From positions 1,199,363 through 1,263,362 of the forward strand of contig NZ_KI421517.1 in the NCBI RefSeq assembly GCF_000473365.1: 64,000 bases of DNA, read 5' to 3'. Below, one piece after another: positions 12,075 through 57,107 of this stretch. Position numbers and translations under genes: made by a program. Numbering within the stretch: position 1 is the stretch's first letter; each line of letters begins with the position of its first letter. The notes beneath the pieces are model-generated. The model had not been told where the DNA came from. It did no database searches and saw only the letters and a program-made list of their open reading frames with translations. This DNA comes from Adhaeribacter aquaticus DSM 16391 (lineage in GTDB: Bacteria > Bacteroidota > Bacteroidia > Cytophagales > Hymenobacteraceae).

Positions 12075-12289
12075 ATTAGTAGCCCTTATGGACAACTTAT
12101 AAATATAAACACAGCATATCCACACGAATTTACACTTTTTCCACGTGGAACATTTGTGGAAATCTAACTTATCAACAACTATAAAGCACTGACAATAAAA
12201 CACAAAGTATATTTAACACAACCATATATACACAATCTCCGTTTGATAATCCATACCTAAAAATAAGTGTCAAATCTAAACAGTATTAA
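12075..12289. promoter_or_regulatory. AT-rich gap with parS-like site and DnaA-box-like cluster
   Basis: This gap before the 3D-domain gene holds the parS-like palindrome at 12137-12152 and five 8-of-9 matches to TTWTNCACA: ATATCCACA (12116-12124), ATTTCCACA on the minus strand (12155-12163), TTATCAACA (12169-12177), TTTAACACA (12212-12220) and ATATACACA (12226-12234). The right part is A-rich. It must also contain the promoter of the gene at 12290. Whether it is a replication element is inference. Confidence 0.4.
12137..12152. promoter_or_regulatory. parS-like ParB-binding site
   Basis: TTTTCCACGTGGAACA matches 15 of 16 bases of the TGTTCCACGTGGAACA form of the bacterial parS consensus. The inner 12 bp (TTCCACGTGGAA) is a perfect palindrome; one outer position breaks symmetry. 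It lies between genes. Confidence 0.6.
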
Positions 12290-28247: not shown

Positions 28248-28742
28248 TTATTTACCGTATTTATGTTCGTGTTCTTTTTTTAATTCCTGGTAATATGAGT
28301 GCAATTTAGCATTCGTCCAAACCTCTTTAAAAATAGCGGCAGATTCTGCCTTTACAGGATCTTCTTCGTTTGGCAGCAGCAACTCCTTACGCGCTGCCTT
28401 TTCCGCTTCACTAGAGGCTTCTAACTGCGGATTCCGGGCATATTTCCTACCCGACTTATGGTTAGCATACCTCCGCGACCTGGTATATCCCATTTGTAAA
28501 AATTTGCGCGCCATGTCGGCTCCAATAAAATCATTCTGCTGCAGATAATCTATAAACAGCTTATAAATGGATTCGGCTGAATTTCGCGCAATTTCCGGCG
28601 TTTTAAATCGCCAGAAAGGTAATATCTCAGATTTATAAGGCTCGACCAATAAAACGCCCTGTTCTCCTTTTCCTACACGGTATAATTCGGGCGAAGCCCG
28701 AAAATTTATTTTTTTGAAGTCTAAGGTATAATCAAACGGCAT
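28248..28742 (-). CDS. DUF4385-family protein
   Basis: A 164-residue protein matching the DUF4385 pattern: FDYTLDFKKINFRASPELYRVGKGEQGVLLVEPYKSEILPFWRFKTPE, then AESIYKLFIDYLQQNDFIGADMARKFLQMGYTRSRRYANHKSGRKY. The family occurs in bacteria and in phages and has no known role. The C-terminus is helical and charged. It leads a two-gene operon, and its upstream region is the AT-rich gap 28743-29221. Confidence 0.8.
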   Translation of the reverse strand: MPFDYTLDFKKINFRASPELYRVGKGEQGVLLVEPYKSEILPFWRFKTPEIARNSAESIYKLFIDYLQQNDFIGADMARKFLQMGYTRSRRYANHKSGRKYARNPQLEASSEAEKAARKELLLPNEEDPVKAESAAIFKEVWTNAKLHSYYQELKKEHEHKYGK

Positions 28743-29221
28743 TTTTATTAGCTGAAAACTACCTATACGTATTTTTTTTTTCTTTTTGTTCAGCTAATTT
28801 TTTTTAAACCGTTTCTTTTCCACACGATATTAATATTAGTGTTTTAAAAAATTTTAATCTAAAAGAATATCGTTCGTTATTAGCTCCGTTAATAAGTGGA
28901 AAAAGGGCATTATGTGAATTGTTGTTTGTTTCTTGTTTATAAAATGGAGCTATTCTCTGATTTATCTACATCCCTAAGCCTTCTAAATTTTTATTTTTAG
29001 CGTAATCTTGGGGTTTATCCACTTTTGTGAATATCCATCGGGGAAAACCTCCTGGATTTGTTAACGCGTGAACAATTTTAAATTTCTGCTAGAGTTAGAG
29101 CCAACTTATAAACTTTTGCTTTTCCGAAGACCTGATTTTGATGCTTAAAAATTGAAAAGTAAAAAATGGTGCACATTATAAACAATTATCAACAGGTATA
29201 CACACCAGTTATCCAACCTTA
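28743..29221. other. AT-rich intergenic gap with DnaA-box-like sequences
   Basis: About 479 bp without an ORF or RNA gene. It contains TTTTCCACA (28816-28824, a full TTWTNCACA match), TTTTCCACT on the minus strand (28895-28903), TTATCCACT (29015-29023), TTATCAACA (29186-29194) and GTATACACA (29196-29204), and runs of T near 28771 and 28797. The left part must include the DUF4385 promoter. Replication relevance is inference. Confidence 0.45.
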
Positions 29222-30835
29222 CTAGAAGGTTAAAGCAATTTCAATTTCCCAGTTCGCTCTTATTTCGATTTGGTCCGGGAAATGGAAAATTCGCTCGGCG
29301 GGAGCTACTAATTCAGGATCGCCTGCCTCCCACTTACCGTTATTATTTTCATCTATTTTTATCCGGATTCGGTAAGTACTCGGCTCCAGTTTATTTAGAT
29401 TAAGTGCTTTTGGGGTATCAAACACTTGTACTACTTTAAAAGAATTATCCATTAGCTCTACCCAATACTTTTTGTGCGTAGTATTTATTTTGGCGATTAA
29501 GGTTCCTACTTGTACCTTATTAGTCATCTGAACTTTATTTGTTTGCCTGGTAAAGCGGTCTCCGGATATGGGTACTACCTTAGTTGTATCTAATATAACC
29601 TGTAGCGTTTTATTAGCAATCAGAGGTTGTTTAACAGTAGCTACCGTAGCAGTTGTATTTAAAGTAAAATCCTGCGGGTAATTTAATGTTTTACGGCTTA
29701 CAGAATCTTCTACAATGGTTAAGGCTGCTTGTGGTTGAGCTATTTTAACCGGAACAACAAATTCTATTTGCAGTGGATCTTCTTTGGTAAGCTGGCCGTT
29801 CCGGGTTTTAACTGAATAAGAAGGTTTAGGGCGGGTAGCTTTTTTGCCTTCTAAGGATACATTTACCGTATCTGTTTTAGTATTGCCGGCACTATCGGTT
29901 ACAGATACCAGAAAATTTGATTTGGTGATATTAAGATCGGTAGGATATAAAACAATATTATTGCTTCTACCTTTTGTATCGATAAATGGAAAAAAGGGCG
30001 CATTGGATGCAGGAGCGGATACCGGTGCTACTTTTACTGCTGTTATTCCTTCATTATAGACAATCCGAAATTCGTCAATAAATTTTTGCGTAGACTCAAT
30101 AATTGGTTTCCGGGAGTCTACCCGAAGCGTAAGTAAATTAACTGGATCAGTTTTGGCGGTTATATTTACAAAACCTGGTAAGTAAGCTATTTTTTCTGCT
30201 TCATTATCAAAGATCATGTTATTGTTTTTATCCTGATGTGCCAGGATCCGGTACTCTCCAAATTTAAGATTAGGCAAGGCAAAGTTTCCTTGTTCATCTG
30301 TTTGGGTAAAGTAATAAGGCCGGTGTTTCCGAATGGTGGTAGTATCTTTAGCTGCGTACAATACTACATTAATGCTTTTTTCGGGGGCATTGGTAAACAA
30401 ATCCTTTACGGTTCCTTTTACTGAACCAGAATCTATATATGCACCCGTACTAAAAGTTAAAGTTGGGTTTTTTACTTTATTTCCTTCTGTTACATCTTCT
30501 ACCCCTCCTCTTAAGTTTAGGTAATAGGTAGTATTGGGTAAAAACGGCTTTTCAAAATCAATTATAAGCCGGTCTTTTTTAACGGTAGTTTTATAAGTGT
30601 TGGTGGTATTAGGAGTAATAAGAATTTCGCGGGTAAAATCTTTTAATCTTATTTCTTCATTAAAATTTAATTCAAGTGTTTTGGTAGAAACATTTATGGC
30701 TCTGTTTAGCGGATTGCTTGAGATTAGTTCAGGGCCAACAGTATCTTTTGGGCCCCCTTCCGGGCTACCTACACTGGCGCAAGCATAAAAAAAAACAGAA
30801 AGAAGTAAAAGGTAAAGAGAGTTGGATTTGAACAT
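29222..30835 (-). CDS. Ig-like (Big_5/SbsA-type) domain lipoprotein
   Basis: A 537-residue lipoprotein (lipobox FYACAS at about residue 19). The first domain, residues 33-135, is a Big_5-type Ig fold (GPELISSNPLNRAINVSTKTLELNFNEEI), then a carboxypeptidase-regulatory-like strand set (GSVKGTVKDLFTNAPEKSINVVLYAAKD, YRILAHQDKNNNMIFDNEAE), and a C-terminal repeat of the same kind (YRIRIKIDENNNGKWEAGD). It is probably a surface or periplasmic protein of unknown role. It lies 65 bp downstream of the methyltransferase gene. Confidence 0.85.
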   Translation of the reverse strand: MFKSNSLYLLLLSVFFYACASVGSPEGGPKDTVGPELISSNPLNRAINVSTKTLELNFNEEIRLKDFTREILITPNTTNTYKTTVKKDRLIIDFEKPFLPNTTYYLNLRGGVEDVTEGNKVKNPTLTFSTGAYIDSGSVKGTVKDLFTNAPEKSINVVLYAAKDTTTIRKHRPYYFTQTDEQGNFALPNLKFGEYRILAHQDKNNNMIFDNEAEKIAYLPGFVNITAKTDPVNLLTLRVDSRKPIIESTQKFIDEFRIVYNEGITAVKVAPVSAPASNAPFFPFIDTKGRSNNIVLYPTDLNITKSNFLVSVTDSAGNTKTDTVNVSLEGKKATRPKPSYSVKTRNGQLTKEDPLQIEFVVPVKIAQPQAALTIVEDSVSRKTLNYPQDFTLNTTATVATVKQPLIANKTLQVILDTTKVVPISGDRFTRQTNKVQMTNKVQVGTLIAKINTTHKKYWVELMDNSFKVVQVFDTPKALNLNKLEPSTYRIRIKIDENNNGKWEAGDPELVAPAERIFHFPDQIEIRANWEIEIALTF

Positions 30836-30900
30836 TATTGATATAAAACTTAAGGCGTTAAATGAACGGCTTTTTAAGTTTAATCATATGCCCGAAATCT

Positions 30901-31791
30901 TTATTTTTTTCGGGCGATATAGATTAAGCTAGAATAATCCTGGGTGCTGCTTTTCGCTTTGGAATTGGATTTGTACCCGTTAATTAAGGAGGTTATGTAT
31001 TTATTGTTGCCATGAATGTATTTTTCGCTAAGTAAGCTTACATAATAGGCATCAAACTTCATGGGTAAAATTTTTGCGATTTCCATTTTATGTTTTTTCA
31101 GAAATCGTTGCATGGTGGTTTGGGTAAAATGGTACAGGTGTCTTGGCACATCATAGGCAGCCCAGTTTTCCCTGTATTTCATGGCATCCGGAGAATCGGC
31201 ATTTGGAACCGCCACCAATAAAAATCCATCCGGTTTCAATAAAGCTAATAGTTGTTGGATAGTCTCGTTTAGCTGGTGAATATGCTCCATAACATGCCAA
31301 AGCGAAATGATATCAAAAGAACCGGCTTCAAAATTTTCTAAATTTTCAGAAGCAATCTCTTTTTGTAATAATTCAGAGGCATGCTGCCGGGCAGCCGCGT
31401 TGGGTTCGAAGCCTGCTACCTGCCAGCCATTTTTCTGACAAGCCGATAAAAAATAACCAGTTCCGCAGCCGTAATCCAGTATTTTACCTTTAGCCGGTAC
31501 GAAGCTATTGATGAGCTCTACTTTTTGCTTAACCGTAATAGATCGTACCACCTGGTAAGCCTTATTAATTAAGCCTTTATTAGTGTTACTATGCGAAATA
31601 TATTCTTCCGAAGCATAGTACTTGCCAATAAACTCTTCGGCCGGCCGGGGGTTAGTAAATTTAAAACTGCAGTTTTCGCACTGCACAATAACAAAGCTTT
31701 CTTTAGAAACGGAATTGTCCGGTACAACCAGAAAGTTTTTAAATTCTTCCTTGTTGCATACCGGACAATTATCCAATCGTTCGTATTGCAT
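30901..31791 (-). CDS. Class I SAM-dependent methyltransferase with N-terminal zinc-ribbon
   Basis: A 296-residue protein. Residues 9-42 hold CPVC and CENC (a Cys4 zinc ribbon); the SAM-binding motif I is ILDYGCGTGYFLSA near residue 104, and WHVMEHIHQL and LKPDGFLLVAVPNADSP are the usual later motifs. This architecture is common in Methyltransf_23/13-type enzymes acting on sugars or quinones. The target is unknown. Its ATG comes directly after the mnmG stop codon, so the two are co-transcribed. Confidence 0.85.
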   Translation of the reverse strand: MQYERLDNCPVCNKEEFKNFLVVPDNSVSKESFVIVQCENCSFKFTNPRPAEEFIGKYYASEEYISHSNTNKGLINKAYQVVRSITVKQKVELINSFVPAKGKILDYGCGTGYFLSACQKNGWQVAGFEPNAAARQHASELLQKEIASENLENFEAGSFDIISLWHVMEHIHQLNETIQQLLALLKPDGFLLVAVPNADSPDAMKYRENWAAYDVPRHLYHFTQTTMQRFLKKHKMEIAKILPMKFDAYYVSLLSEKYIHGNNKYITSLINGYKSNSKAKSSTQDYSSLIYIARKK

Positions 31792-33654
31792 TTATTTTCC
31801 TAAGTAAACCATCAGAATAGATATATCGGCTGGCGATACACCACTTATCCTGGAGGCCTGTCCAATTGTTTCGGGGTTGATTTTTATTAATTTTTCACGG
31901 GCTTCTTTAGAAAGAGCTGGCATGTTATTATAATCAAGTCTTTCCTTAATTACATAATTTTCTAGCTCCTCCATTTTAGCGGCCAGTTGATTTTCTTTCA
32001 AAATATAACTTTCATACTTCAAAGCTATTGAAGCTTGTTCAACACTTTCTGGTAAATATTTGCTCAGGTAATGTTCTATAGTTGGCACCGCCTGTGTAAT
32101 ATTTTCTATATCAATATTTGGCCGTTTAAGTAAATTAGCGGCTTTTGCTTTCTCGCTAATTGGAGCCGAACCTTGTGCCAGTAGGCTATCGTTAATTTCG
32201 ATAGGTTCAACGGCTTTCCGATTTAAGTACTCCAGTACCTCTTTGGTTTCGCTTATTTTTCTTTCTACTGCTCTTAAACGGTTTTCATCAGCTAAGCCTA
32301 GATCGTAGCCTAGTTTAGTTAATCGTATATCCGCATTATCCTGGCGCAACAAGATGCGGTGCTCTGCCCGGGAAGTAAACATCCGGTATGGTTCTTCGGT
32401 ACCTTTATTTACCAAATCATCAATCAGTACACCAATGTATGCCTCGGAGCGTTTTAGTATAAACGGCTCTTTTTCGTTTATTTTATTGTGTGCATTTATA
32501 CCAGCCATTAGTCCCTGGCAGGCAGCTTCTTCATAACCAGTTGTTCCGTTTATTTGACCTGCGAAATATAAATTCTCAACCAACTTAGTTTCTAAAGTTA
32601 AGTTTAGCTGGGTTGGTGGGAAGAAATCATATTCTATGGCATAGCCCGGACGGAACATTTTTGCTTTCTCAAAACCAGCTATTTTGGTTAATGCCTTATA
32701 TTGTACATCTTCCGGAAGTGAACTGGAGAAACCATTTACATAGATTTCAATTGTATTCCAACCTTCTGGCTCCACAAAAATCTGGTGCCGGTCTTTATCG
32801 GCAAACCGGTTTATTTTATCTTCTATAGATGGGCAGTAACGCGGACCTAAGCCCTTAATACGTCCCTGAAACATAGGTGATTTTTCGAAACCTGTTTTCA
32901 GTATTTCATGAACGTCAGAGTTAGTATAGGTAATATAGCAACTCCGTTGTTTTTGTAATGGTGCCGTAGCGGTATAGGAAAATTTAGAAGGATTCTCATC
33001 TCCTTTTTGTTCCTCCATCCGGCTGTAATCCAACGAACGGCCATCTATTCTTGGCGGTGTTCCTGTTTTCATTCGGCCACTCTCAAAGCCTAACGATACC
33101 AATTGCTCGGTTATACCTGTAGCCGCTTTTTCGGCCGCACGTCCTCCTCCTAATTGTTTTTCTCCGATATGGATGATACCATTTAAGAATGTACCATTTG
33201 TAAGTACTACAGCTTTCGACTTTATTTCAATACCTAATCCGGTTTTTACGCCGGCTACTTTTCCATCTTCTATCAGAATACTGTTCACCATATCCTGCCA
33301 GAAATCTAAGTTTTCTGTCTGCTCTAAGCTTAAACGCCATTCTTCCGCAAAACGCATTCGGTCGCTTTGGGCACGCGGGCTCCACATGGCAGGGCCTTTA
33401 GAAAGGTTAAGCATACGGAATTGAATCATGGTCTTATCGGTAATAATGCCACTCATTCCGCCTAAAGCATCCACCTCTCTTACTATTTGTCCTTTTGCTA
33501 CACCTCCCATAGCTGGGTTGCATGACATTTGGGCAATAGTATTCATATTCATGGTTACCAAAAGTGTTTTGGAACCCATTTTTGCTGCTGCAGCTGCTGC
33601 CTCGCATCCAGCGTGGCCTGCCCCTACTACTATTATATCGTACTTATCAAACAT
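31792..33654 (-). CDS. mnmG: tRNA uridine 5-carboxymethylaminomethyl modification enzyme MnmG (GidA)
   Basis: A 620-residue FAD enzyme. The dinucleotide-binding motif [10 protein letters not shown] is at residues 11-20; [24 protein letters not shown] and GYAIEYDFF are family signatures, and the C-terminal helical domain (from about 550) binds MnmE. With MnmE it makes cmnm5U at U34 of several tRNAs. The gap upstream contains a perfect parS and DnaA box. Downstream it is tightly coupled to the methyltransferase. Confidence 0.97.
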
Positions 33655-33663
33655 TTATCAACA
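33655..33663 (+). promoter_or_regulatory. DnaA-box-like site at the mnmG start
   Basis: TTATCAACA, 8 of 9 match to TTATCCACA, adjacent to the mnmG ATG. Confidence 0.35.
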
Positions 33664-33666
33664 GTA

Positions 33667-33682
33667 TGTTTCACGTGAAACA
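33667..33682. promoter_or_regulatory. parS site (ParB binding)
   Basis: TGTTTCACGTGAAACA is a perfect 16-bp palindrome and a full match to the bacterial parS consensus TGTTNCACGTGAAACA. It lies in the 82-bp mnmG-ybeY gap, 13 bp upstream of mnmG. Confidence 0.85.
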
Positions 33683-33686
33683 CCCT

Positions 33687-33695
33687 TTATCCACA
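33687..33695 (+). promoter_or_regulatory. Perfect DnaA box
   Basis: TTATCCACA, an exact consensus DnaA box, 5 bp from the parS palindrome. Confidence 0.65.
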
Positions 33696-33736
33696 TTAAA
33701 ATTCCTGAATTAACATTTTAATTCAGATAAAAGTTT

Positions 33737-34171
33737 TTATAGAAATTTTCGCAAAGATAAGCAGTAATCTTCTTTTTCGCTCATGAGTTTCTTTTTATCA
33801 GGTGTTTTATCATCATAACCTAATAAATGAAGCAGGCCATGCGCCATTACCCGGTGTAATTCATCTTCAAAACTTATACCTAAAGAAGCTGCATTATCTT
33901 TAATCCGATCTATACTAATAAAAATATCACTTTCAATAACACCGGTTTCGTCGGCATTATTAAAAGTGATAATATCAGTGTAGGTATCGTGGTCTAAATA
34001 TTCTATATTAATCTGGTGCAGGTAATCGTCTGAACAAAATATATAAGTTAAAGCTTCTAACGTATAATCATGTTCTTCTATAAGCTGCGTTAACCAGTCA
34101 GTAATATTTTCTTGATTTGTTAATTGGAATTCAATGTCTTCAGAAACAAATTCTATTGGAGCATCAAGCAT
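33737..34171 (-). CDS. ybeY: Endoribonuclease YbeY, 16S rRNA maturation
   Basis: A 144-residue metalloprotein, near the usual 150. The motif MAHGLLHLLGYDDKTPD carries H111 and H115, but the third ligand of HGxLHLxGYDH is Asp (D121) here; I recall similar variants in Bacteroidota. Also visible is DTYTDIITFNN. It is involved in rRNA 3'-end maturation and ribosome quality control. The start overlaps the end of the ATPase-fold gene by 8 bp, so they are translationally coupled. Confidence 0.93.
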   Translation of the reverse strand: MLDAPIEFVSEDIEFQLTNQENITDWLTQLIEEHDYTLEALTYIFCSDDYLHQINIEYLDHDTYTDIITFNNADETGVIESDIFISIDRIKDNAASLGISFEDELHRVMAHGLLHLLGYDDKTPDKKKLMSEKEDYCLSLRKFL

Positions 34172-34571
34172 TATTTATAAAAAATGTTAGTTGTACCTTA
34201 CGGCCATCGTTGGAAAACTCCACCTCATCGCTCAGATTACGCATCAGAAAAATACCACGCCCACCAGGGTTTTCGATATTCTCCGGGGCAGTTGGGTCAG
34301 AAAGAGAATTAAAATCAAATCCTGTTCCCTCATCTTCTACTTCAAAACGTAACCGATCCTCGTCAACAAATAAAGATAAAATAACATTTTTATCTTTATC
34401 AAATTTGTTTCCATGACGAATAGCATTGTTTACAGATTCAGTTACGGCTACCATTATATTACCGTAAATATCATCTTCAATATTAAATTTTTCTTTCGAG
34501 TTGTCTATAAAGCTTTCTACTACCCGAATGTTTTCGATTAATGAAGGAATCTGAATTTTTAATTGATTCAT
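34164..34571 (-). CDS. RsbW-like GHKL ATPase (anti-sigma factor type)
   Basis: A 135-residue GHKL ATPase domain alone: N box AVTESVNNAIRHGNKFD, G1 box VEDEGTGFDF and G2 box GGRGIFLMRNLSDEVEF. Such single domains act as anti-sigma serine kinases (RsbW/SpoIIAB). No sigma factor or STAS anti-anti-sigma partner is adjacent, so its target is unknown. It lies in the DUF4175, ATPase, ybeY run and overlaps ybeY by 8 bp. Confidence 0.88.
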   Translation of the reverse strand: MNQLKIQIPSLIENIRVVESFIDNSKEKFNIEDDIYGNIMVAVTESVNNAIRHGNKFDKDKNVILSLFVDEDRLRFEVEDEGTGFDFNSLSDPTAPENIENPGGRGIFLMRNLSDEVEFSNDGRKVQLTFFINNA

Positions 34572-34608
34572 AGTTTTTTAAAGATTTCGCTATACGTCAC
34601 ACTAAAAT

Positions 34609-37600
34609 TTATCTCGTAATTCTTTGGAAATACTCGTTCACTTCCTGTTTGTAATACGGAGAAAAAGCAGGTGTAACCGTTTTTAGTAATTCCGTTTGTT
34701 TCTCTTTTGTTTTTAGATACTTCTCTAACGACGGTGGCATTATACGTGTTTTTTCGGATGCTGTTCGGGATTCCCGTTTGTTATCTAACTCACGTTCCCG
34801 CGCTGATTTCTCAGCTTCCAGCAAACGAGTAAGTATTTCACGCTGCCGCATAATGGTTTGCTCAGTAAGTCGTTTATTAACGAGATCGGTTTCTGTTTGT
34901 TCCATCATTTTACCCAAATCGTTTAACTTATTTCCCAAACCTTGCCCTTGGTTTTCTTTACCACCTTGTTTTTCTAATTCTTTCAGGGCATTCCGCAACA
35001 TTTGTTGTTCGGCCGCCAATTTAGCTAATTCTTCTGATAGTCCCTTGCCTTGTTGGTTACCTTTTCGCAATTGCTCCATTTTTTCATTTAAACTTTGCTG
35101 CATCTGGCCCATTTCGCCGGGTTGTGGCTTGTTCCCTTTCTTTTTCTTACCCGATCCAGGCTTAGATTTAGCCATTTGTTGCATTTGCTGCTGCATTTGT
35201 TTTAAAGCATCATTCAGCATCAGCGCTAAATTATTAATAGAAGTCATGGTTAGCTGCTGGTATCCGGTAGCTTTGCCTACGTTACGCTCTTTAATTTGCT
35301 GTAAACTATTAGCTATATTATCATTCATGGAGCTCACCTCCCGCGTTACGAACGACTGTATCTGAAACACTTTTTTAGCTAAAGCATTTAAACTATCCTC
35401 TATAATTTTAGCATCATCTTTTAATTTTAGCTGCTGCTGCCCTAATTGTATAAACCGGGGATCGCTTTGGCTTACTCCCCGGAAGGATTTCATTAATTCT
35501 TCCTGGTCAAACGAAAGCGTAATTAAGTTTTCTAAAATATCGCGTAAATTATCCAGATTCTGTTGGGCTTCTTCCTGCTCGCTGCTCTCCATTTTCTGTT
35601 TCATTTTTTGCGCCATTTGTTTCATTTGCTCTGACGCATTTTTCTGTGATTTGCTGGCTTTTTTATTCTGCCCTTTATCTAACGACTCCTGGCTGTCCTG
35701 CATCTCTTTATCGATCTGTTTTTCCTGTTCTTTGGTGTCATCCATCTGGTACTGATCGTTGAGTTGCTTATCCAGTTCTTTCATTTCCTGCATATCTTTT
35801 TTCAGATCTTCAAATTTCTCTTTCAGATCTTTTTGCTCTTGCTGCAGTTGCTGATCGTTGGCTTGTTTATTCTCCGTTTTCTCAGCCAGCTTTTCCTGTT
35901 CCTTGGCCAGTTCATCCAGTTTATTAGTAGTATTCTCCAGTTTATTTTCCAGCTGTAATTGCTTGAATAATTCCAGAGCTCTTTCTAGTTCTTTTTCCAG
36001 GTTTTTCTCTTTGTTATCAAGCTTATCCATTAGCTTCTGTAACTCCCGTTCATTAGGCTGGTTTTGCTGCAATAATTTTTCCAGCTCCTGGTAAAGTTTT
36101 TTGGTTTCCTCATCCAATAACTGATTCATCAGTTCCTGTAACTGCTTCGCTTTCTCGGCTAATTCAGGGCTTTTTTCATTGAATCGCTCCTGTTGTTTAT
36201 TTAGCTGCTCAAACATTTGTTTCATGGATTGAATGTCGCTTTCTAACTGCTTTTTCTTCTCCATTAAATCTTCAATCTGCTTTTTATCCTGCCACGATAG
36301 TTCTTTTTTTGTTTTGAGCTTTTCTTCTGCTTTTTCAATTTCCTGCCGGATTTGTTGAGACTTTTGAGCTGTTTTACTCAGCTGCCCCTGCATCGATTTA
36401 GCGTTGGCCGTTATTTCATTTTCAATATCCCGGCGGGTTGGTATCTGAAAGTCAAATAAATGGGTACGGGCACTTTTAGATCCGTGTACACCATCATTAT
36501 CCCACACCTGTACAAAATATTCCAAGCGGTCCCCGGGAGCTAATTTTAAATTATCCAAATCCCATTGGTAATAATAAGTCTGGCTTAGCTGTTGCGGATC
36601 AAAACGAAGCGGAATGGTTTTGTAATCTCCGCTGCGGCCAGCTTTATCGTTGGCTATGCGGTAATGTAAGTTTAATCGGGTTAAACCATAATCGTCGTTT
36701 ATATTGCCACCTAAAACCAAATAAGAAAAGGTAGCAGTATCCTGAAAATTTTCCATGCTTATGTCTGGTGAACGATCCGGAATACTGCTAATCATAAAGT
36801 TCATTTCATCTTTATTAAAGCTGTACTTGTTACGGAGTTTCACGGCATATTCCTGGCTTTTATCTATCCGCTTACTAACTTTAAATAGGTTATTATCTGA
36901 AGAAGCTGAAAGCGTTTGGTCAGGACTTTTAAAATCCAGTGAGAGTTGTTCTGTGGCGTCTGTTTCGAAATTCCATTTAACGGTACTTCCTTCCGGTACA
37001 CTTAAATTTCCGGTATTGCGGATGGTTTCAGTGGCTTTGTGTAAGTAAGTTGGGTAAGTAATATCTACAAAAAAATCGATCAGGTTTGGACGGGCAATTA
37101 TATTCAGGTTATACTCCTCTGAGTAAAAACCGCCTCCGGCTAACTGAAACTGAACAGGTTTTTGTAGTTTCTGAAAGGTGAAAGAATAGCTGCCATTTTT
37201 GTCCTGTACCAGCTTTTGTTCTCTGCCATTATATAGTATGGTTACTTCTTTAGGAATGGTTTTACCTTCCAGTTCTACTTTCAAAGTAAAATCCTCGTGC
37301 TGGAAAGCCTGTAAATTTTTATTTTGTACATGAAATGTAAATGGTGCTTCCGGGGCGTAATATTTTTTATAATGAATTATACGTTCGGTGCCTTGTACAA
37401 ATAAACTCGGGTAAATAAGCGCAATACCTAGCATTACTGCCATGGGCACCAAAACATATTTTAGTAAAGGTTTATTTTCTCCTAAACGAATACTATCCGC
37501 AAAATGAAAGCCGGAAAATTGCGCTGATTTTTGTTCAATGCTGGCAGTAATCAGTTCATTATTAAGGCCAATGCCTTGAAGCTGAATGGTATTTAATAAC

Positions 37601-54557: not shown

Positions 54558-57107
54558 TTAACCTGGCCGCTTCTTGGTGCCCCTGGTTGGTACAGCTGCT
54601 AGGGGATCTTCGGGCCAGAAGTGTTTTGGGTAGCGACCACGAAGGTCTTTACGAACCTCAAAATAACCGGAAGTCCAGAAGCTTCGCAAATCGCGGGTAA
54701 CTTGTACAGGTCTGGATGCCGGCGAAAGCAGATGTATTAGTAAAGGTACTTTTCCGCCTCCTATACGAGGGGTATCCAGCAGGCCAAATACTTCCTGTAA
54801 ACGCACCGCCAAAACAGGAGCCTTACTATCCGAATAATCTAATGCAATGCGCGATCCGCTGGGTACCTCCAGGTAGGTTGGCGCTAACCGGTCCATTTCC
54901 TGCCGTTGTTCCCATGATAAATCTGCTAGTAATATTTCGTTCAGATCTAGTTTGGCAACCTGGTCCAGAGAACGTAAGCCTGCTAAATGTGGAACCAGCC
55001 ATTCTGATAAAGAAGAAGTTAAGGTTTCATGTGAAACATCTGGCCAGCGTTCTGGCTCCAGGTTATGCAAAAAAGCCAAGCGTTGGCGGGTTCGATTTGC
55101 TTCCTCTGACCACGGTAAGCGGTCAACGCCTTTTTCCTGCAGTGCCTGCAACAAAGCTTGCGCTACCAGTTCCGGATCAGGTTTAGCAATATTGCCTTCT
55201 TCTAAAAGTAAAGCCCCCAAGCGGGTAATTTGTCGAGTTATAACGCGTTCGGTAGCAGTATCCCACCTTACTTCCTGAACTTTTTCTGTCTGACCGACAA
55301 AATGATTCAGTATCTCGTTTTTTGTTATGGGGGCTGCTAATAATACCCGTGGCTGATTGCCTAACTCCAGATGAGCTACCCCATAAAATTCAGCTTCGGA
55401 AAATAATTCTGTAGGCAAAGTAGCCCGTTGGCCTGAGATCAAACGAATCCGGCCATTTGTCTCCCGCTGAGCAATTCTTTCGGGAAAGGCCAGAGCAGTA
55501 AGTAAACCTGTGGCATCAACATTAATTGGTTTATCAGATTCTCTTAAGCGTTGCCTTAAAGCACGCGCTTGCTCCCGTACCCGGCGCAACGTAGCTTCAT
55601 CTGTACTATAACCGGGGGTAAGTGGCCGTTTACCGGCTACCATTTCCAGCCGTAGGTGCAGGTCTGGTAAGGTTTTGGAGCGGTTAATTTCTATTGATTT
55701 TAAAATGTCACGTTCGGCAAGTAAGGCGGCCAGTGCGCAGGCAGTTGAACCTAAATTTAAGTCGTGGCCCCGTATTACCAAGTGTCCTAAACGGGGATGG
55801 AGCCCTAACGCAGCCAAAGCTTTGCCATGGGCTGTGGCATTACCAGATGCATCTATTGCTTCGAGCCGCTGGAGTAAATCTTTGGCCAAAGCTAAAGCTG
55901 CAGCGGGTGGATTATCGAGCCATTTAAGCGAATTAGCCTCTTTTACTCCCCAAATAGCCAACTCCAAAGCAAGACTGGTTAAGTCAGCTTCACAAATTTC
56001 CGGATCTTGCCGGGCCGGTAATTGTAACTGATCTGCCTGAGACCAGAGACGGTAGCATATTCCGGGACCCAAACGGCCAGCCCTACCCCGTCTTTGGTCG
56101 GCGGCGGCCTGGGAAACCGGAACGGTGGCTAAGGTAGTAAGGCCGGTGCGGGGAATATATTTAGGAACGCGCGCTAAACCACCATCAATTACTATTTTAA
56201 CGCCTTCAATAGTTAAACTGGTTTCCGCAATACTGGTAGCTAATACTACTTTTCGTATTCCTTTTGGTGCCGGCTGAATAGCGGCATGCTGTTGGGTAAG
56301 TGTTAATTCGCCGTGAAGTAAATGTAAATTAGTATGCGGAAAAAGTTTGCCTTCCAGGCTTTGCGCAACTTTACGCATTTCACCTAGTCCGGGCAAAAAA
56401 ACCAGCACATCCCCTTCTGATTCCTGCTCCAAAGCTTTTCGAATAGTTTTGGGTACCAGGTTGATTAATCGTTCTGCCGGAAATTTACCGGCTGCGGCCA
56501 TGTCTGCAGGTGATAAGTAGATTGTTTCTATCGGGTACATCCGGCCTTCACTCCGGATTACCGGTGCTTCTAACCAGTTGCCAATAGCAGTAGCATCCAG
56601 AGTAGCACTCATCACCAGCAACCGTAAATCAGGCCTTAGTACCGCCTGGGCATCCAGCGCTAAAGCCAAGCCTAAATCAGCGTTCAGGCTTCGTTCGTGA
56701 AATTCATCAAAAATAATAGCCGCAATGCCTTCCAGGGCTGGGTCGTCTTGTAGCAGGCGGGTCAGAATACCTTCGGTTACTACTTCTACCTTGGTATTAT
56801 TAGAAACTACATTCTCCAGCCGTACCCGGTAACCAATTGTCTGTCCAACGGCTTCCTCCATTAAGTCAGCCATTCGTTGGGCGGAGGCACGTGCGGCCAA
56901 CCGCCTTGGTTCCAGTACTAATATTTTCCCATTATTACGCCAGGATGCATCAAGTAAGGCCAGGGGTATTAAGGTTGTTTTTCCGGCTCCGGGAGGAGCT
57001 TCCAATACAACACGCGTACTTGCTTCCAAGGCTTGTAATAACCGCGGCAGCGCCTCCTTTACGGGTAATGGGGGTAATTTTTGCAAAATATTAGTAGTGG
57101 CTGACAT
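54558..57107 (-). CDS. hrpB: ATP-dependent RNA helicase HrpB
   Basis: An 849-residue DExH-box helicase (an ATG three codons upstream is also possible). Motif I GAGKTT (about residues 41-46), motif II DEFH, motif III SATLD, motif VI QRRGRAGR. The long C-terminal HrpB-specific domain ends in FWTSGYFEVRKDLRGRYPKHFWPEDP, the family's closing signature. The RNA substrate is unknown. It stands alone on the minus strand; a degenerate parS-like 16-mer lies inside the coding region at 55023. Confidence 0.95.
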   Translation of the reverse strand: MSATTNILQKLPPLPVKEALPRLLQALEASTRVVLEAPPGAGKTTLIPLALLDASWRNNGKILVLEPRRLAARASAQRMADLMEEAVGQTIGYRVRLENVVSNNTKVEVVTEGILTRLLQDDPALEGIAAIIFDEFHERSLNADLGLALALDAQAVLRPDLRLLVMSATLDATAIGNWLEAPVIRSEGRMYPIETIYLSPADMAAAGKFPAERLINLVPKTIRKALEQESEGDVLVFLPGLGEMRKVAQSLEGKLFPHTNLHLLHGELTLTQQHAAIQPAPKGIRKVVLATSIAETSLTIEGVKIVIDGGLARVPKYIPRTGLTTLATVPVSQAAADQRRGRAGRLGPGICYRLWSQADQLQLPARQDPEICEADLTSLALELAIWGVKEANSLKWLDNPPAAALALAKDLLQRLEAIDASGNATAHGKALAALGLHPRLGHLVIRGHDLNLGSTACALAALLAERDILKSIEINRSKTLPDLHLRLEMVAGKRPLTPGYSTDEATLRRVREQARALRQRLRESDKPINVDATGLLTALAFPERIAQRETNGRIRLISGQRATLPTELFSEAEFYGVAHLELGNQPRVLLAAPITKNEILNHFVGQTEKVQEVRWDTATERVITRQITRLGALLLEEGNIAKPDPELVAQALLQALQEKGVDRLPWSEEANRTRQRLAFLHNLEPERWPDVSHETLTSSLSEWLVPHLAGLRSLDQVAKLDLNEILLADLSWEQRQEMDRLAPTYLEVPSGSRIALDYSDSKAPVLAVRLQEVFGLLDTPRIGGGKVPLLIHLLSPASRPVQVTRDLRSFWTSGYFEVRKDLRGRYPKHFWPEDPLAAVPTRGTKKRPG

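Follow-up and report, generated by a model that had tools for sequence, protein, structure and literature searches.

A predicted parS centromere in the mnmG leader of Adhaeribacter aquaticus and its recurrence beside mnmG in the Bacteroidota

In many bacteria gidA, gidB, parA and parB form a cluster at the replication origin. The consensus of the parS site has been given as TGTTTCACGTGAAACA in Hi-C work on twelve gut bacteria, which also reports that parS sites cluster near GC skew inversions, that the origin does not systematically lie at dnaA and that no known condensin was found in two Bacteroidetes (PMC10197239). In Pseudomonas aeruginosa, promoters adjoining parS3 and parS4 are repressed by ParB (PMC5521831).

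The window (the whole stretch of DNA analysed, 64,000 nucleotides of the Adhaeribacter aquaticus DSM 16391 genome) carries ybeY and mnmG on the minus strand, and a preliminary description had placed a perfect palindromic parS and two DnaA boxes in the 82-bp gap between them (33655-33736). All three were recovered, among the following features.

12137-12152, no strand: possible degenerate second ParB site TTTTCCACGTGGAACA, intergenic, one mismatch from the C-type form
31792-33654, minus strand: mnmG (gidA), 620 aa (Pfam GIDA, E 7.6e-165)
33655-33663, plus strand: DnaA-like box TTATCAACA with one mismatch, directly against the mnmG start codon
33667-33682, no strand: parS, perfect 16-bp palindrome TGTTTCACGTGAAACA, zero mismatches
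33687-33695, plus strand: exact DnaA box TTATCCACA, which closes a series of nine such boxes across 41 kb
33705-33726, no strand: inverted repeat CTGAATTAA-CATT-TTAATTCAG, read from the sequence
33737-34171, minus strand: ybeY, the gene upstream of mnmG (Pfam YbeY, E 1.7e-26)
33752-33759, minus strand: TATCTTTG, candidate Bacteroidota -7 promoter element for mnmG, within the 3' end of ybeY

Judged by its letters, the palindrome is a textbook parS, matching the 16-bp consensus at every base. It was the only perfect copy in the genome (5.17 Mb in four contigs), against a chance expectation of ~0.002 (16 fixed bases at ~40% GC; our own arithmetic). At up to two mismatches one more match appeared genome-wide, and the reversed control also gave one; a candidate second parS at 55023-55038, with two mismatches and within a coding frame, was rejected (two genome matches versus one in the reversed control). 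The site at 12137-12152, 21.5 kb away from parS, appears at one mismatch once the inner base of the consensus is freed, a search in which 18 genome matches at up to two mismatches against 14 in the reversed control lend it little weight. The mnmG leader also holds a nine-base inverted repeat with a 4-bp loop (33705-33726), for which we have no explanation.

A single ParB-family gene above the curated cut-off was found in the genome, at C1:4462087, with N-terminal, HTH and dimerisation domains according to Pfam, and it comes 12 bp after a gene for a ParA-like ATPase, so that both partners are encoded. The stretch GERRYQA in this ParB resembles the CTP-binding motif. With dnaA at C1:2437293, parAB and dnaA are each more than 1 Mb distant from parS. 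ParB was above the curated cut-off in all 20 family genomes searched; the distance from parB to parS was 2.0 Mb in the relative G006. In G012, a second genome compared, the two lie 2.9 Mb apart on the contig, a separation that falls to 1.9 Mb should the contig be circular.

Position relative to the origin was assessed by GC skew. Sampled skew in the window's genome was negative to ~1.24 Mb and positive thereafter, and within 103 kb the cumulative minimum fell at C1:1242001, 9 kb from parS. From ~1.5 Mb the skew turned negative once more, a positive stretch followed between ~2.8 and 3.9 Mb, and the resulting second negative-to-positive switch near 2.75 Mb counts against a simple origin picture; one inversion of ~1.2 Mb on contig C1, or a misjoin in its assembly, would explain the extra switches. 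In G006 all ten stretches below the parS stretch, and the parS stretch itself, were negative and the next eight of eight positive, with a local minimum 10 kb from parS; the last sampled stretch, at 4.84 Mb, was again negative. In G012 a single stretch of the arm before parS, at 3.3 Mb, was not negative (0.003); here the sign changed ~0.16 Mb or more past parS, which counts against origin proximity. Skew at third codon positions gave no sharper picture in G006 and G012.

The exact DnaA box is separated from parS by four bases, and not five as previously stated. This 9-mer occurs 33 times genome-wide, compared with 62 for its reversed control, and nine of the 33 lie within 41 kb (C1:1192090-1233057, i.e. 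window positions 1-33695 plus ~7 kb ahead of the window), where an even spread predicts 0.26 (our own arithmetic). Several of the nine TTATCCACA boxes are within genes, and the next box past parS is 96 kb off. A comparison of the 60-kb parS region with 340 kb sampled elsewhere gave four exact boxes versus one in G006 and four versus none in G012, in both cases on either side of parS. No decisive cluster of DnaA boxes marked a precise oriC in the 103 kb searched in the window's genome or in the 60 kb searched in each of G006 and G012. Two intergenic stretches, 28743-29221 and 12080-12289, hold several DnaA-like boxes and are oriC candidates only; the latter also contains the degenerate parS-like site. 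Taken together, skew in the window's genome and in G006 and the concentration of DnaA boxes nearby make it probable that parS marks the origin region, as had been proposed. These data are best read, short of proof, as placing the origin no more than some tens of kilobases from mnmG. Origin proximity is supported but not settled, the caveats being the second skew switch near 2.75 Mb and an oriC for which there are only candidate stretches.

Conservation of the site in mnmG leaders of the Hymenobacteraceae, as suggested beforehand, was borne out over a range far wider than proposed. The perfect 16-mer was present in 71 of 150 family genomes, in one copy each. Loci could be read for 30 of these 71 genomes (the other 41 gave none), and in 29 of the 30, our own locus included, the perfect site lay directly before mnmG with ybeY upstream; the remaining locus (L048) belongs to genus g5.

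Family genomes without the perfect 16-mer were mostly from genera g4 and g5. All 24 g4/g5 genomes searched nevertheless contained the 14-bp core GTTYCACGTGRAAC, once in 22 and twice in two. The copy common to all 24 is situated 24.0 to 33.8 kb downstream of mnmG (our own subtraction), and the second copy, in G005 and G064, ~150 bp before mnmG. By these positions, parS moved in the g4/g5 lineage and mnmG stayed put, from which it follows that mnmG can do without an adjacent site. The moved site follows a small helix-turn-helix gene in the four loci translated (identified by Pfam in one), and the same small-gene end is visible by eye at other moved sites. Nearly all moved sites viewed (L256-L260, L262-L270 and L276-L281) read TGTTTCACGTGGAACA or its reverse, often within a longer palindrome (aaaaat...tttttgt). 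Correspondence of the moved site to the window's site at 12137 gained no support: eight proteins encoded around 12137 in the window had no match in a set of 26 loci (L256-L281), which comprised 20 moved sites and, at mnmG, two g5 cores and four g3/g6 sites, but not the moved sites of G004, G005, G025 and G064.

There were a few exceptions to conservation. Two genomes of the window's own genus, G019 and G024, had no parS at mnmG and no 14-bp core genome-wide, and yet encode ParB; in both (L223 and L222, respectively) the mnmG leader has been replaced. Retention of ParB without a recognisable core leaves these as exceptions for which we have no explanation, and the named Adhaeribacter rhizoryzae locus L071, being identical to that of G019, is not an independent case, though its name agrees with the window's genus. 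In G056 (L226) the leader parS is one base short, no intact core was found in the genome and ParB is present; the missing base may be a real loss or a sequencing error. The 14-bp core was also not found in G034, a genome that is 78% complete.

Beyond the family, we examined the 80 named mnmG loci most similar to the window's MnmG, a sample hence biased to relatives. At least one parS-like site (up to two mismatches) lay within 200 bp upstream of mnmG in 74 of the 80, whereas mononucleotide shuffles expect 0.03 loci; six loci (L071, L075, L083, L085, L111 and L114) had no leader site. The perfect Y/R form was seen in 55/80 leaders and two or more copies in 54/80, the last two copies being 43-47 bp apart in 20 of these 54. 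Across the same loci, 142 sites fell in 15.9 kb of leaders and 22 in 520 kb elsewhere. A ybeY match was found at 47 of the 80 loci; 29 of the 33 without one retained the site, which shows that it follows mnmG and not the neighbouring gene.

Less biased samples were obtained by seeking MnmG in 41 genomes of the phylum and 30 of the class, and a site was scored if it lay no more than 200 bp ahead of mnmG or 250 bp past it. From the phylum sample came 29 loci besides our own, no locus being obtained for a further 11 genomes in which MnmG was matched; in the class sample, removal of our own genome, of one already in the phylum sample and of one fragment left 27. A site was present in 8/9 class members of the phylum sample (eight before, four behind mnmG), in 16/20 loci from other classes (seven before, 14 behind) and in 22/27 loci of the class sample (14 before, 15 behind). 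The perfect T-type 16-mer occurred in eight of the 118 genomes of the order sample, which included our own and eight g5 genomes (loci L151-L161 from that search were kept outside the mnmG comparison); outside the family this type was uncommon and other forms prevailed, and C-type and mixed forms were common in the leaders read. Genes behind mnmG were inspected in nine other-class loci: Pfam identified gidB in four (L293, L294, L301 and L302), in which the site lies between mnmG and gidB or within the gidB start, and in the other five the gene looks unlike gidB. Near the gidB start in the former four, parS reads as the residues FHVKH, FHVEH, VPRET and VSRET, respectively, and the centromere may constrain the GidB protein there. 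An ancestral order parS-mnmG-parS-gidB fits these observations but is not shown by them. Across the phylum, the pattern suggests that parS beside mnmG is an old, inherited arrangement.

We therefore regard the element as a chromosomal parS centromere, a ParB loading site near the replication origin, with a probability of about 0.88. The sequence of the site, its uniqueness, its conservation and the presence of ParA and ParB genes were established directly, and from these we infer that the predicted site binds ParB and acts in segregation. ParB dimers would bind the palindrome, close as CTP clamps and slide outwards, and ParA would pull the ParB-loaded region, so that segregation starts with the freshly replicated origin. 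In the window's species one perfect site in the mnmG leader would serve as the centromere. Its position would be inherited, persisting although parAB and dnaA are more than 1 Mb off, and the tandem copies in many relatives would fit multiple ParB loading sites.

The preliminary description went further, proposing cross-talk between segregation, initiation and mnmG expression, and its two components fared differently. ParB sitting on parS in the promoter or 5' leader, or spreading out from it, could in addition lower mnmG transcription and be conserved as its repressor. This would couple tRNA modification to origin status, and the linkage would be kept by that function. Such a role is compatible with leader architecture, since 55 of the 80 named leaders have a site whose end is 6-20 bp short of the start codon, and with the recurrent 43-47 bp spacing of the last two sites; the P. 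aeruginosa promoters beside parS3 and parS4 offer a precedent. Promoter-like boxes of the form TAnnTTTG, the Bacteroidota -7 motif, occur upstream of mnmG in 27/80 leaders, whereas dinucleotide shuffles gave a mean of 9.2 and a maximum of 18. Ten boxes begin 15-30 bp before a parS, and in L130, L136, L140 and L147 a box overlaps one. Part of these promoter-like boxes, however, lie in ybeY coding sequence. The window's own candidate, TATCTTTG, 69 bp before parS, is a case in point: the same bases encode YbeY residues, and its assignment as an mnmG promoter element is an inference only, as it could be merely coding. The linkage could also be inherited without any function, the site is found more often behind than before mnmG in other classes, it falls within the gidB start in four loci, and the g4/g5 core is 24-34 kb from mnmG in 24/24 genomes, being the sole core in 22. 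This relocation, with mnmG doing without the site, makes regulation of mnmG by ParB a minority view in our estimation, possible but doubtful. Slightly less likely still is the fuller proposal that much of the phylum has retained a centromere in the mnmG leader because ParB there doubles as a repressor or timer of mnmG transcription. Tandem parS sites, spaced by about four helical turns, would form the operator, and mnmG expression would sense origin number.

The DnaA component did not hold up. A dual switch, in which competition or cooperation of DnaA and ParB couples initiation, segregation and mnmG expression, would draw on the two boxes that flank parS with starts 32 bp apart both in the window and in genus g6. 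Among 109 mnmG leaders surveyed, 103 of them with parS, a nearby DnaA box was exact in two parS-bearing leaders and DnaA-like (at most one mismatch) in 19, compared with 0.11 and 2.2 in shuffles. Sixteen of the 19 come from genus g6 / Rufibacter (18/102 and 15 after correction for L053 and L072, which have the same sequence), and for this reason most of the excess reflects a single event. Conservation of DnaA boxes next to parS, which a DnaA-regulated promoter would be expected to show, was rejected as a general feature of mnmG leaders. No DnaA-like box stood beside parS in four genus-mates with parS (L042-L045), paired boxes among the leaders read were confined to the window and one other genus, and relative to mnmG they are turned one way in the window and the other way in g6, leaving the shared 32-bp spacing a curiosity without explanation. 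We consider such a switch very improbable. Even less credible is an RNA hairpin in the mnmG leader, an attenuator or translational control in place of a ParB site. The palindrome does fold into a hairpin of 7 bp a short way ahead of the start codon, but pair-breaking C..A sites were not rarer than wobble-keeping T..G sites (24 versus 13 in the 80 named leaders, 7 versus 4 in 56 others), no Rfam match was obtained in 28500-35000, and g4/g5 and other classes have the site outside the leader. The hairpin was rejected on the substitution pattern and the Rfam result.

If the centromere reading is true, the origin could be located simply, in many genomes of the Bacteroidota, by looking beside mnmG. 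It would also become possible to test why gidA is found at bacterial origins, an old question, because the phylum has natural variants with two sites, with one, with the site moved 24-34 kb and with the site apparently lost and ParB kept. A statement of parS-mnmG linkage in Bacteroidota was not found in the literature searched; the parS survey of Livny 2007, outside that scope, may have it. With the parS sites of chromosomal ParABS systems, such as parS1-4 of P. aeruginosa, the window's site shares the 16-bp consensus, a genome encoding ParA and ParB and a position probably near the origin, but it differs in having one perfect copy per genome (71 family genomes), in the mnmG leader where read, and in the distance of more than 1 Mb to parAB and dnaA in the window's genome. 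As in the gidA-gidB-parA-parB cluster, parS here adjoins gidA (mnmG), although the gene behind the window's mnmG encodes a methyltransferase assigned to different Pfam families, with no GidB match, and parAB is elsewhere. The Hi-C study of gut bacteria chose between skew inversions by parS itself and so is not independent proof of the origin, and its consulted sections, unlike the present analysis, do not mention mnmG; they agree with our data in placing parS near a skew inversion and in finding dnaA to be no systematic mark of the origin (PMC10197239).
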